From Alphaproteobacteria bacterium (GTDB lineage Bacteria; Pseudomonadota; Alphaproteobacteria; Thalassobaculales; Thalassobaculaceae), in assembly GCA_024742605.1 (NCBI GenBank), contig JANSYC010000012.1, forward strand, positions 1 through 64,000: a DNA stretch of 64,000 nucleotides, written 5' to 3'. A program made the translations under genes and the position numbers. Positions 24,195 through 40,268 of the stretch are shown piece by piece (the stretch's first letter is position 1; each line of letters starts with the position of its first letter). The notes beneath the pieces were generated by a model. That model ran no database searches. It was not told where the DNA came from and saw only the letters and a program-made list of their open reading frames with translations.

Positions 24195-26084
24195 TCAGCC
24201 CAGCTCCTGCCTATAGGCCAGCCGCAGGTTGCCCCAGATCCGGTCGCGGACCACGATCGGGCAGTCGATCTCCTTCAGCACCTGCGTGTTGCCGCCGCCC
24301 ATGTCGCGGACATAGGCCTGGACCTGATGGGGCGTGGTATTGCGGGCGGCGAGCAGGCCGGCGCGGTCGTCGAAGATCCGGCGGTTGCGGCAATTGGCCG
24401 TGTTCCAGACCGGATCGGCCGGGTTCTGGGGCTTCGAGTAGACCGTGTTGTGGGTCGGCAGGAAGGCGTTGCGGTCCACCGCCGCACAGAACACGATGCC
24501 CTCGGCCTTCTTGACGATCGGCTCCTGGATCGCCGGAAACTCGGCATCGGTCAGGGCGACAAACGGCGTCATGAACTGTTGCGGGTTGGACCCCTCAATC
24601 GGCTCATACAGTTCCCAGAACAGATCCTCCTCGGTGATCCGACGGTTGGCGACGGCGTCGGTCAGGATCCGCGACAATTGGGCGGACCCGTCCCGGCACA
24701 ACTCGATCAGGGGCGCATCCGCCTCCTGGGTCCGTCGCATCACCGCCCGCACCGGCGCGAGGGCTTCCGGCTGACCGGTGTCGAAGCGTAGGTGAAGCCC
24801 CAGCCCGCCGCCGCCGATGGTCTCGACCGGCACCGAGCCGAACGCCGCCGAGTCGAGCGTGCCGTGCTGCCCGCCCACATCGTCGTTGCCGAGGCCCGGG
24901 TGAAACAGCGCCCCCATGGTGGACAGATCGACCACGTGTCCTTTGGAACTCTGGCCCTCCAGGCGCAACTGTGCCTCCAGGCCGACCGGAACCCGGGTAC
25001 CGCCGAAGCCCTCGGTGCCCTCCGCGTCGCCGCTTCGGGTGGTCGCCATCATAATGGCGATCCGGCGCTGCAGATCGCCGATATCGCCGGCCAGACGGTT
25101 GGAGATCTCGCTCAACCGCTCGGAGGTCTGGGTGGATACCCGCGCCACCTCACGCACGGTGCCAAGCTGTTCGGCCACCTGCCCGGTCTCGCTGGACGCC
25201 TCGTTCGCACTTCGGGCGATCTCTCCGGTCGCGGCCCGCTGCTCCGCGGCGGACGCGGCAATGGCGCCGGACCGGGACGACAGATCCTCGATGCTGGTGA
25301 CGATGCCGTTCAGGGCGCCATCGACTTCCTGGGTCGCGACGGAAATCTGCCCGGTGCGTTCGGAAACCGACAAGATGGCGTTCTCGGTATCGCTTGCCAG
25401 CGATTTCACCTCACTGGCCACCACCGCGAAGCCCCGGCCGGCCTCGCCGGCACGCGCCGCCTCGATCGTCGCGTTCAGCGCCAGCATGCGGGTCTGCCCG
25501 GCGATCCGGCGGATCAGATCGGTCACGTCCCCGATCGCCCCGGCACTCTCGTTCAGCCGCCCCATCGCCTGTTTGGCGCGGTCGACATCCTCCTTGGTGG
25601 TCGCGGCCTGATCGGAGGCTCCTTGCGCCTGATTGGTGATTTCCTGGCTGGACGCCTCCAGTTCCTCGGCGGCTCCGGCCACCGTGTTCACACTGACCCG
25701 GGTCGCGTCGGCCGAGGCGGACACCTGTTCGGTGGCCGCACTCACTTCGCCGGAGGCCGTGTCCAGCCTGAGGGCGAGCTGCGCCAGAGTATCGACCAGA
25801 TGACGCACTTCCGACAGGGTGACCGTCATCTCCCGGTCCAGGCTGCCGGTCATCGCCAGCAACCGATCCCGCTCGGCAGCGCTCTCGTCGACGGTGTCCC
25901 CCTCGGAAGCCGAAACCACCTCGAAGGCTTCCCGGATCAGATGGCTGATCTCGGTCTTGCGATCGCCCGCCGACAGACGGCGGTTCTCAAAAACCTGAAA
26001 GATCGCGGTTTCAAGAGCCATCGTCTGTTCAGCATGCTTCGAGCTGATCTCGGTTGAAACCCCCGATGGTCCTGACACCACCAT
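24195..26084 (-). CDS. soluble methyl-accepting chemotaxis protein with C-terminal sensor domain
   Basis: A 629-residue receptor without membrane spans, so probably cytoplasmic. A methyl-accepting helical hairpin spans about 80-345, with the CheA/CheW-contacting tip [30 protein letters not shown] region at 201-230. Residues about 361-455 look PilZ-like ([13 protein letters not shown], then [11 protein letters not shown]), but the RxxxR c-di-GMP motif is absent. The C-terminal 475-629 segment, with [19 protein letters not shown] and YVRDMGGG, matches a Cache/PAS-like domain found in other alphaproteobacterial receptors. ATG at 26084 or at 26021 (MALETAIF) could be the start. No CheR-binding pentapeptide. 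Confidence 0.88.
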
Positions 26085-36446: not shown

Positions 36447-37013
36447 TTATCCGGCTTGGCCGAAGACCACCACGCCCACAGTCATATCCGGTGTCTCGCG
36501 ATCGTTGGCGAGCGGGCAATGCACGCTGTTGTAGTAGTGCCAGGACTGATCGACCGCCCACACCACCCTCCCCGACCGAAACACAGGGCCACCCGTCACC
36601 AGGGGCCGGCGAAAACTGTCCAGCACACTGTCGAGCGCCCGGTCGAACGAGCACTCGGTGACCAGCCTGCCGGTCAGATCCCGGCGCAGGAACTCGGTGA
36701 TATGGGTTCCGATCAAGCGATAGCGGAAGTCCTGTCCGCCGTCGATCACATCCATCAGGATCACATGGCCGAACCACGGCCTGAACTCCAAGACGTCGAA
36801 ATCGGCCCGCGACGGCAAGCCCTCCCCGGATCGTTTGGAGATCCAGAAATCCCGGAAAGAGCGGACCATCGGATCCGGGCTTTCCGTCACCACATCGTCA
36901 TGCACCATCCCCGGTCCAATGTTTTGTCCGCAAGCTCCGAGGCTGGACCGGATCTCCGCCCGATCAAACCCGTGGCCAAGATATCGCAATGCCACGGGAC
37001 GCGCAGCCATCAA
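36447..37013 (-). CDS. PAS_5-type single-domain protein
   Basis: A 188-residue soluble protein of the same family as the one at 16.1 kb: LPSRADFDVLEFRPWFGHVILMDVIDGGQDFRYRLIGTHITEFLRRDLTGR, then VVWAVDQSWHYYNSVHCPLANDRETPDMTVGVVVFG. The whole domain is present and no output domain follows. A start at 37013 or the internal ATG at 36957 are both possible. It lies just downstream, on the same strand, of a membrane chemoreceptor, so a signalling link is possible but unproven. Confidence 0.7.
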   Translation of the reverse strand: MMAARPVALRYLGHGFDRAEIRSSLGACGQNIGPGMVHDDVVTESPDPMVRSFRDFWISKRSGEGLPSRADFDVLEFRPWFGHVILMDVIDGGQDFRYRLIGTHITEFLRRDLTGRLVTECSFDRALDSVLDSFRRPLVTGGPVFRSGRVVWAVDQSWHYYNSVHCPLANDRETPDMTVGVVVFGQAG

Positions 37014-37049: not shown

Positions 37050-39425
37050 CTACGAAGACCGCACGCGGGTCAGGAAGCTGTCGACTTCCCGCTCAAGGGT
37101 ATCGACGGAGTCCGAAAGCGTGCCGCACATCTGAAGCACGTCGCCGGCATCCTGGCCGGTTTTCACCGTCGCATTGCTGACCTCGGAGATCGCATTGGTC
37201 ACCTGTTGCGTGCCCTGCGCCGCTTCCTGAGTGTTGCGGGCGATCTCTTGGGTCGTCGCCCCCTGCTCCTCCACCGCGCTGGCAACGGCGGCGTTCAGCT
37301 CATCCAGCTGGGCCACCGCCGACCCGATCCCTCCGATCGCGAGCACGACCTCGTCGCTCGCGGCTTGCACCTGTTCGATCTGTACACGGATGTCATCGGT
37401 CGCCTTGGCGGTTTGGCTGGCAAGCGATTTGACTTCGTTGGCCACGACCGCGAACCCCTTGCCGGCCTCTCCCGCACGTGCCGCCTCGATCGTGGCGTTC
37501 AGCGCGAGCAGGTTGGTCTGGGCCGCGATGTCTTGAATCAGGGTGATGACATCCCCGATCCGAGCGGCCGTCTCCGCCAAGGCCTTCACTTGGGCGTCAC
37601 CGCGGCTGGTTTCGTCACTTGCCTGCTTCGCCATCGTGGCGGCCTGGCCAACCTGACGGCCGATCTCATGGACGGTGGCGGCGAGTTCCTCAGCGGCTGC
37701 GGAGACCGCCTGGACGTTGGCGCTCGATTGCTCCGACGATCCCGCGCATTCCGTCGCGCGCGTGCCGGCATCGTTGGAGGCGGTCTTCATATTTTCTGCA
37801 CGGGTCCGGACATCCTGGGCGAAGGAGATCAGTTGCCGGACCACGCCTCCAACCGAGCCTTCGAAATGATCCGCCAACTCGGTCATCGCTCGACGCTTCT
37901 CCTGCTCGGCCTTCTGTGTCCGCTGCTCCTCTTCCGCCTCCAGCCGGTTCACCCGCTCAGCGTTCTCCTTGAACACCTGGACGGCGCGCGCCATGTCGGC
38001 GATCTCGTCGGACCGGTCCAAACCCGGGACCTCGACCGAGAGATCGTTATCGGCCAAGCTTTGCATTGCTGTGGTCATTGAACCGATCGGCCGGACGAGG
38101 CTGCGCGCCAGAAGCACCGCGATACCGATCGCCAGCAGCACTGCCACCAATGTCCCAGTAATCAGCATTGCCCGGGCAAGATCCCCGTCGGCCTCTCTGC
38201 TGTCGCCGAAGCTCTCGATCCGCGCCGCCGTTTCCGTCAGGACGACACTCGATGCTTCTTCCATGTCGACGGCCGCCTGTTTCTTGCTGAACATCGCCGC
38301 GATGCTCTCGCCGAAAGCGGCCTCGTAATTGTCCGCGGCCGTGCGGAGGCCGGCCAGGCTTTCTTCCGCCTGAGTATCGTCAACGAGGGCCTCGAGGCCG
38401 ACGATCGTGGCGTTCAAAACCACCAGTCGATCGTTCACAGCCTGAACGAATTCGGGGGCGGCCTGACTTTGTTCCACATCCTTCTGGGCAATCTGGAGCG
38501 ACCGGACCTGTGCGACCAGTTCGGTTGCAAGACTCATGGTCTCCATGGCCGTCTCGACCGACTGCTGCGCCCTCTCGCCCTGAATACGAGCCTCGTCGTA
38601 GGCCTTAACCTCACGGTCACCGATCACGCTTGCGAAGGTATCGATCTGGCGAGCGGATTTTCTCAGTTCCTCCATCGCCGTGGTGGCATCGGCGGAAAAC
38701 CGGGGCGCTTCGGTCAGGTTCTCGAAGGTCTTGCGATACGTACCGACACTCTTCGCCAACTTGGTGATCGCGGCGGCTTGGGAATCCGAGCTCGACATTC
38801 TCTTAAGAGACAGCACCGAGAGGAACATTTTTTTGATCGACTCCCGAGCCACGTCGGCGTCGTCGGTACTCAAGGTGACCCGGTACTGGGCCTCATCGCG
38901 CTGAGCCCGAAGCGAGGTACCGACCATCTCATCAGCGGCGATCGAGGTCGCCATCCGCTCCTGCTGGACAATAGAAGCCTGTTCCCGCGCACCACGCATA
39001 TCGACCAGTCGCTCCGACGCCAGATTCCGGATACGGCTTGCCGCAGTCTCCAAACGATTGGCGCTGTCGTTCATATTTTCGGATTGGGTGCTACTAGCAT
39101 CGGAGAGATCGACATAGCCTTTGAATGCCGCGTCAAAATCAGCGATTGCCTTGACAATGCCTTCGGCGCCGACCGCCTGGGCCTTCTCCAGCCCGGCTGT
39201 CAATGAGACGAAGACGGACTCGACGGCATCGGGAGCACCGGCCACTTGGTACTCGGCAACCTTCAACCGCGCCGACGTGACGTCATCGGCGATCATCCGC
39301 ATGGCCTCCGCCTGATCGACCGACGCCGCATAGCGATCCAAGGCCCACCAACCGGCGCCACCAAGCAATCCCGTCACAACGACAATGGCGGCATATCCCG
39401 CTCCGATCCTTGCACCAATCCGCAC
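37050..39425 (-). CDS. membrane-bound methyl-accepting chemotaxis protein
   Basis: A 791-residue receptor: span 1 at about 9-28, a long, predominantly helical periplasmic region at about 29-415, span 2 at about 416-440, HAMP at about 438-490 ([38 protein letters not shown]) and a signalling hairpin with the tip [30 protein letters not shown] region at about 640-670. The ~385-residue sensory region is far larger than a simple four-helix bundle and looks like a stack of helical bundles. The GTG start at 39425 follows GAGGGGGAG. No CheR pentapeptide ends the protein. It is divergent to a secreted PDC-type protein. Confidence 0.93.
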
Positions 39426-39510
39426 GGCGTTCTCCCCCTCAAAATTCTATAAAGCTCACCCGTAATAGAGCAGAAATTCCTTAATGAATCGTTGCTGGGA
39501 CAATTGAGCC

Positions 39511-39553
39511 AAAAACAGAAAAAAAACGCTCTGCATTCAAAGCAAGAGCGTTT
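39511..39553 (-). terminator. intrinsic terminator in the chemoreceptor leader
   Basis: On the minus strand a stem AAACGCTCT / AGAGCGTTT (39545-39553 with 39524-39532) with a 12-base loop is followed by a run of about eight Ts and a T-rich tail. It points toward the chemoreceptor gene, whose start is 86 bases further on. It could stop antisense transcripts from the right, or act as an attenuator in the receptor leader. Confidence 0.72.
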
Positions 39554-39650
39554 GGTAACTAAATGTAAACTCACAGGCAGCATTTTAGCGCGACGGGCCC
39601 AGCCAGTACGGGGGGCTAAGCAGCAGTTTGCTTATGAAAGGGAGAGCAAA

Positions 39651-40268
39651 ATGGATGGAGTTGCCTGGAAGATGAAAGCGTCGGGATTGAAACTGGCAGG
39701 CCTCTTGGTTGCCGGTGCAATCGCCGGGTCGGTCTTTACGACCTCCGCATACGCCAATGAATTCGCCCCGCAGATCGAGACCGTCTTCAAAGAACAGGTC
39801 AAGAGCTGGCTGTCCGATCCGGCTGTCGTCGATGCCATCAAGGCTCAGAACGCCACCACTGCAAGCTACGATGACGCCAAGATCGAGGAGCTCGACCAGA
39901 CATGGCGGGCCGAGGCGAAGGCCGGCGGCGGCGACCTGGTTAGCGCAACGCTCGGCAATGCGCTGTCCGCGTTCCTGAAGGGCAAGAAGGACGCCTCCGG
40001 CGACATCTTCTCCGAGATATTCGTGATGGATGCGAAGGGCCTCAATGTCGGCCAGAGCGACGTGACCTCGGATTACATGCAGGGCGACGAAGGCAAGTTC
40101 CAGAAGACCTTCGGCGTCGGCCCCGACGCCATGTTCATCGACGAGGTCGAATTCGACGACAGCTCGCAAACCTTCCAGAGCCAGGTCAGCCATACCATCG
40201 TCGATCCGGCGGACGGCAAAGCGATCGGCGCGATCACCCTGGGCGTGAACGTCGAAAATCTTCCCTGA
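39651..40268 (+). CDS. secreted stand-alone PDC/Cache-type sensor-like protein
   Basis: A 205-residue protein with a signal peptide (about 1-36, cleaving near AYA-NE), predicted periplasmic. The mature part carries the single PDC-like pattern: VDAIKAQNATT, ELDQTWRAEA, EIFVMDAKGLNVGQSDVTSDYMQGDEGKFQKTF, then FDDSSQTFQSQVSHTIVDPADGKAIGAITLGVN. This is what Cache sensor domains of receptors look like, here without a membrane anchor or output. ATG 39651 follows AGGGAGA. It sits divergent to a membrane chemoreceptor, which suggests but does not prove that it delivers a ligand to it. Confidence 0.75.
   Translation: MDGVAWKMKASGLKLAGLLVAGAIAGSVFTTSAYANEFAPQIETVFKEQVKSWLSDPAVVDAIKAQNATTASYDDAKIEELDQTWRAEAKAGGGDLVSATLGNALSAFLKGKKDASGDIFSEIFVMDAKGLNVGQSDVTSDYMQGDEGKFQKTFGVGPDAMFIDEVEFDDSSQTFQSQVSHTIVDPADGKAIGAITLGVNVENLP

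Follow-up and report, generated by a model that had tools for sequence, protein, structure and literature searches.

A predicted secreted, stand-alone Cache protein encoded beside chemoreceptors, and a possible docking partnership between the two

The receptor gene and its divergent neighbour

The locus lies in a 64,000-nucleotide stretch of alphaproteobacterial DNA (contig JANSYC010000012.1; hereafter the window), where a chemoreceptor gene and a gene for a small, probably exported protein are divergently arranged. Their features are as follows.

37050..39425, minus strand: methyl-accepting chemotaxis receptor, GTG start, 791 aa
39363..39419, minus strand: transmembrane (TM) helix 1, residues 3-21, by hydropathy
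38166..39362, minus strand: periplasmic ectodomain, about residues 22-420, predicted all-helical and McpZ/HBM-like (AlphaFold, Foldseek)
38109..38165, minus strand: TM helix 2, residues 421-439, by hydropathy
37959..38114, minus strand: HAMP domain, residues 438-489 (PF00672, E 2.4e-12)
37173..37643, minus strand: MCP signalling domain, residues 595-751 (PF00015, MCPsignal, E 3.1e-29)
39426..39650, no strand: divergent intergenic region, 225 bp, separating the two start codons
39651..40268, plus strand: putative secreted stand-alone Cache (PDC) protein, 205 aa, by predicted fold; no Pfam or NCBIfam match
39651..39755, plus strand: predicted signal peptide, residues 1-35, ending in TSAYA before NE, read from the sequence
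40065..40091, plus strand: family motif TSDYMQGDE, residues 139-147, between strands 2 and 3 of the Cache sheet

The receptor opens with an MRIG motif, as do the receptors of relatives, and its signalling domain carries the QTNLLALNA hairpin motif, the pattern starting at residue 630. A Pfam scan returned nothing significant between the two TM helices, where the ectodomain of roughly 400 residues lies, and Pfam HBM gave no match over its curated cut-off in the window receptor; among receptors linked to relatives of the small protein, HBM was matched under the cut-off in L031 (E 3.7e-4) and over it in L084. An AlphaFold model of the ectodomain (alignment A4, 20 rows; mean pLDDT 87.5, pTM 0.66) consists of eight helices and no strand. 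Comparison of this model with solved structures matched the McpZ ligand domain 8f7n (Foldseek E 5.8e-8; Z 19.4 over 351 residues, rmsd 11.1), the McpS HBM 2yfb (Z 19.7 over 223 residues, 2.0 A) and TorS, alone and TorT-bound (Z about 16). For mostly helical models, the aligner's own warning is that Z values up to about 13 may reflect a common arrangement; the McpZ and McpS scores stand well over this background, TorS less so, as unrelated helical proteins also reach 16. At the sequence level, profile A4 matched PcpI (E 8.8e-8) and McpS (E 7.9e-5), in agreement with HBM, and McpZ was not among its matches in the PDB. One weak phmmer match of the ectodomain to an octopine-binding protein (E 0.012) was taken as chance. 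On these models, the ectodomain is predicted to form an elongated helical bundle between the TM helices, bimodular or longer, with a fold of the McpZ/McpS/TorS type.

The 225-bp intergenic region contains no repeat and no sigma-70-like promoter pair, and its single terminator-like site is within chance level. The receptor gene is followed by a gene for a PAS_5 protein (36447-37013, minus strand) that matches the motility regulator MopJ below threshold, and the order MCP, PAS_5, RraA-like is repeated in L030, L034, L035, L036 and L037. A second MCP-type signalling domain occurs in the window at 24195-26084 on the minus strand, its frame showing no clear TM segment.

The small protein likely starts at the ATG at 39651, which is preceded by an AGGGAG-type ribosome site, and its sequence contains no cysteine and, past the export signal, no second TM segment. 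A hydrophobic N-terminal segment is present in 112 of 118 relatives examined, and AxA in 106 of the 118. The protein matched nothing in Pfam or NCBIfam even at E 1, relatives gave sub-threshold matches to dCache_1 (E 0.0051 and 0.11), and a sequence search of the PDB with the family profile returned nothing at E up to 1. The AlphaFold model (alignment A1, 29 sequences; mean pLDDT 88.8, about 96 in the mature part) has an alpha/beta fold with a long N-terminal helix and the element order of a single Cache domain. Over residues 25-205 it matched the Cache/PDC structures of CitA (1p0z, Z 11.6), DcuS (3by8, Z 11.8), WalK (4ywz, Z 12.0) and DctB (2zbb, Z 12.7). With the sensor domains of KinD and Tlp3 included, roughly 120-140 residues were aligned by VIA-align at Z values between about 10 and 13, and Foldseek E values reached down to 8.7e-7. 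These data support the assignment of the small protein as a secreted, unanchored Cache/PDC protein, the secretion signal being read from sequence and the fold predicted.

T139, S140, D141, Q144, D146 and E147 of the family motif are invariant among the 29 sequences of A1. The motif sits where Cache domains form their ligand pocket and may have a pocket role itself; its near-invariant form, TSD(Y/F)(W/M)Q(G/A)DE, suggests that the whole core family would bind one kind of ligand.

The preliminary description of the locus had placed a membrane chemoreceptor divergent to a secreted PDC/Cache protein with a signal peptide and no anchor. The arrangement is confirmed, with 225 bp between the start codons, and the predicted Cache fold, hydrophobic export segment and lack of a second TM segment agree with the character given to the neighbour. 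Its helical, non-PDC sensory region likewise agrees with the strand-free model, with the length revised from ~385 to about 400 residues; the neighbouring open reading frame, drawn from a TTG at 39492, keeps its end at 40268 and probably loses its start to the ATG.

Linkage of the Cache gene to receptor genes

Among 61 genomes, the Cache family comprises 29 copies in 16 genomes, the window's own included, and an MCP gene adjoins all 29. Fourteen copies form class A, with the Cache gene divergent to that of a ~790-800-aa receptor; in the 15 copies of class B the Cache gene lies directly upstream, on the same strand, of a receptor measuring 534-581 aa where complete, that of L044 being interrupted by a contig end. 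Of five class B receptors scanned, CHASE3 was over the cut-off in L045, L046 and L050 and not in L043 or L057. Where one genome holds both classes, each Cache class stays with its own receptor class. At two loci (L031:1955-6841 and L032:8139-13045) one Cache gene accompanies a tandem pair of class A receptors.

A GTDB scan with A1 as the query alignment and one genome per species found at least 569 relatives of the Cache family. Among the best 80 of these, an MCP gene adjoins 74; of the remaining six, L090, L110 and L129 have a contig end close by that leaves one side unreadable. In a survey of 289 alphaproteobacterial genomes, each at least 90% complete, 39 carried the family, with 55 copies in all, 44 of which adjoin an MCP gene and nine of which have no receptor neighbour. 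The chance of an MCP neighbour for a random gene, estimated from the numbers of MCP matches and candidates, is roughly 1-7%; the Cache-MCP pairing is far above chance. The two also co-occur at the level of genomes, as MCPs were present in 156 of the 289, comprising all 39 genomes with the family versus 117 of the 250 others (Fisher P 3e-12, kinship ignored). Full-length class A ectodomains occur in four of the 289 genomes, with a divergent Cache gene in G000, G002 and G122 and none near in G082. The other two of the 55 copies have different neighbours. At L155:3964-5433, two tandem Cache genes precede one MCP gene, and the copy in question lies behind the one that adjoins it. At L178:4622-8587 the Cache gene overlaps a histidine kinase gene, whose product has two TM segments, and a response-regulator gene follows; this is the same Cache family with another output.

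In a phylum-level sample of 397 genomes, 38 had the Cache family, in 48 copies. An MCP gene adjoins 23 of the 33 core copies; of the ten without one, eight are in genomes of a single family, f23. Two f23 orphans (L175:4752-8574 and L242:4723-8545) have as neighbours genes for an OmpA-family protein of 603 aa (the one scanned being that of L175) and for a protein of 383 aa, and no MCP gene. Seventeen plasmid records matched the family, and in the eight neighbourhoods viewed an MCP gene stood beside the Cache gene in four (Ruegeria, Paroceanicella, Rhizobium and Agrobacterium) and not in the other four (two Azospirillum, two Pseudoalteromonas). An EAL gene next to the Azospirillum copies was considered as a partner and set aside, the one scanned lying on the opposite strand and encoding a PAS-GGDEF-EAL protein in which no periplasmic domain was recognised. 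No member of the Cache family turned up in the phage collection searched.

Gene order was counted over 166 copies (the window plus loci L030-L192, some loci being entered twice). Of these, 145 are linked: 102 with the Cache gene followed by the MCP gene, 25 divergent and 18 with the MCP gene first. Reduced to 139 distinct linked pairs, the receptor ectodomain exceeds 350 residues in all 20 divergent pairs and is below 220 residues in 104 of the 119 others, as parsed by hydropathy, which misparsed at least some of the in-between ones. A tree of 150 Cache sequences, 136 of them linked, requires at least six gene-order changes, or nineteen when loss of linkage is counted. The pairing is thus kept in three gene orders and with unlike receptor ectodomains.

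A test of co-divergence favoured the ectodomain only in the short-ectodomain class. Over 102 such pairs, Cache distances followed those of the ectodomain (r 0.78, partial r 0.72) and not those of the signalling domain (partial r -0.02), with a half-sample range for the difference in partial r of 0.61 to 0.87; these and the other r values reported are based on plain distances, and a version with Kimura distances, which were saturated, gave a weaker contrast (0.44 versus 0.17) with invalid half-samples. Similar contrasts were seen for short-ectodomain, Cache-first pairs alone (0.70 for the ectodomain versus 0.11 for the signalling domain) and for close pairs (0.61 versus 0.11). The trend was opposite in 13 MCP-first pairs (partial r 0.16 for the ectodomain versus 0.44 for the signalling domain), and for the 20 long-ectodomain pairs, the class of the window, the corresponding values were 0.19 and 0.55, with a difference range of -0.86 to 0.47. 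The ectodomain is the receptor half nearer the Cache gene in Cache-first order, which could itself produce the ectodomain-specific signal, as recombination inside the signalling domain could give the same picture. We therefore take co-divergence in the short-ectodomain class as support and not as proof.

The pair is conserved across genomes, as the 29 of 29, 74 of the best 80 (of at least 569) and 44 of 55 copies beside an MCP gene attest, and the possibility that the two genes would not be kept together, which the preliminary description had named as grounds for abandoning its proposal, did not materialize. The co-occurrence it anticipated holds as linkage, but the partner is sometimes absent, as in the nine alphaproteobacterial copies without a receptor neighbour. 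The contrast it drew between the fold of the receptor and that of the sensor holds for the window pair but does not generalize, since the ectodomain is itself dCache_1-like in at least three linked receptors, narrowly over the Pfam cut-off in L136 and under it in L115 and L083.

A docking model and its alternatives

We propose that the soluble Cache protein plays the part of a periplasmic binding protein, docking on the neighbouring receptor, and that the two form one sensory unit. The small protein would be exported to the periplasm and fold as a single Cache domain, its pocket would bind a small ligand, and the protein would dock on the long helical ectodomain of the receptor encoded next door, the loaded or unloaded complex altering the TM-HAMP signal to the chemotaxis kinase. 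Such action would resemble that of TorT on TorS or PstS on CtpL, with the Cache fold as the carrier. In this model ligand binding, docking and the direction of signalling are inferred. In its favour are the two predicted folds, the linkage, the co-occurrence with MCPs, the gene-order changes, the matching of classes, the co-divergence of the short class and the precedents; against it stand the contrary co-divergence values of the long-ectodomain and MCP-first pairs, the orphan copies, the G082 receptor that has no Cache gene nearby, the partners with Cache-like ectodomains and the kinase neighbour at L178. The docking of a secreted sensor on the receptor, as first suggested for this locus, is the best supported of the explanations that we considered, with a probability of about 0.6.

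Other architectures of the Cache module bear on what the protein may carry. In twelve distant relatives the Cache domain is preceded by an N-terminal domain related to family-3 solute-binding proteins: its profile (A5) matched the arginine-binding protein 3tql (E 1.2e-7), and SBP_bac_3 was matched in one of five fusions scanned (E 0.003). L224 encodes a Peripla_BP_5 protein with a C-terminal Cache domain, and residues 364-494 of 5ere, a solved extracellular ligand-binding receptor, match the Cache model. Four histidine kinases (L223, L225, L226 and L227) have a distant Cache match inside a dCache_1 ectodomain. Together, the fusion and dCache_1 architectures suggest that the stand-alone form arose from a membrane-bound dCache domain or went through soluble fusions. 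At L149:2658-6428, an MCP gene lies between an upstream stand-alone Cache gene and a downstream gene for a solute-binding domain plus Cache, all on one strand, and at L230:4624-5961 a family-3 solute-binding-like domain fused to Cache is encoded 26 bp from a 557-aa MCP frame.

The soluble Cache domain might even serve as a general plug, a speculative broadening of the docking model in which the bare Cache would sense its own ligand, solute-binding fusions would bring others to the same kind of receptor socket, and inputs would be swapped through soluble Cache proteins rather than receptor ectodomains. The same fusions, together with the Peripla_BP_5 protein of L224, could instead mean that the Cache protein is mainly a docking adaptor whose ligand is brought by another domain or protein. 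We consider this unlikely: an MCP gene lies beside two of the twelve solute-binding fusions and beside none of the other ten, a core-family protein consists of the Cache domain and has no remaining part that could carry a ligand, and the motif at the usual position of the Cache pocket is among the best conserved columns of that family.

It is also improbable that the Cache protein and the receptor are co-regulated and respond to the same ligand but never touch, the former being a periplasmic buffer, scavenger or delivery protein. A divergent or operonic layout alone would give co-expression, and the orphan copies and the solitary G082 receptor fit such independence, but linkage has been kept through at least six gene-order changes and across unlike ectodomains, co-divergence is ectodomain-specific in the large class, and transporters, not receptors, are the neighbours that one would expect for a scavenger. 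Least probable is that the receptor senses alone, as McpS does through its HBM, with the Cache protein a modulator of range or adaptation: the HBM/McpZ-like ectodomain, the McpS structures 2yfa and 2yfb, which are ligand complexes, and G082 fit this, but it offers no reason for the retention of this Cache family by receptors whose ectodomains are of the CHASE3 type.

For many chemoreceptors no ligand is known, and assignment is difficult where the ectodomain is helical. If docking occurs as proposed, ligand screens on the receptor ectodomain alone would fail and screens on the small soluble Cache protein would work, and this would apply widely, given at least 569 relatives in one genome set. 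Indirect sensing would then include, besides the binding-protein fold, the most common of the extracellular sensor folds.

Comparison with known systems

According to PMC12889525, fusion to an output is the rule for over 90% of Cache domains, and the stand-alone form is atypical. The accessible part of the founding Cache survey (PMC4822843) contains no discussion that we found of stand-alone, secreted or soluble Cache proteins, and our literature search, largely outside subscription journals, returned no account of a chemoreceptor that has a secreted Cache protein as its partner. Several plasmid-borne relatives carry the automatic NCBI name 'PDC sensor domain-containing protein', with no function or pairing attached.

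In its predicted fold the small protein resembles the dCache_1/sCache sensors CitA, DcuS, DctB and WalK, from which it differs in having no TM anchor or output domain and a weak or absent Pfam match. It shares its stand-alone form with sCache_heme (DUF3365/Tll0287), which, according to PMC12889525, binds c-type heme through CXXCH and has redox roles when alone, whereas the window protein has no cysteine. The receptor ectodomain resembles McpZ and the HBM of McpS and PcpI in fold and sequence profile; for McpZ, by contrast, a soluble Cache partner was not found in the accessible parts of the literature searched.

The closest parallels are TorT/TorS, PstS/CtpL, maltose-binding protein/Tar and LsrB/Tsr, which the window pair would resemble in its soluble secreted protein, helical ectodomain and proposed docking relay. 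As summarized in PMC6321045, binding proteins drive 4HB receptors in E. coli, HBM receptors (CtpL), sCache receptors (TlpB) and dCache receptors; TorT/TorS, XylFII/LytS and LuxP/LuxQ are solved complexes; and CtpL/PstS and TorS/TorT are precedents for helical ectodomains run by binding proteins. The window pair shares with such systems a soluble protein that is probably secreted, as its signal peptide indicates, and encoded with its receptor. The model of the small protein shows a Cache fold in place of the two-lobed fold of periplasmic binding proteins. Whereas the carriers of binding-protein-driven receptors are two-lobed, that of the window would be a single Cache domain, usually encoded beside its receptor, and the Cache-MCP pair would be a new variation on indirect chemoreception, not a system of a new kind.
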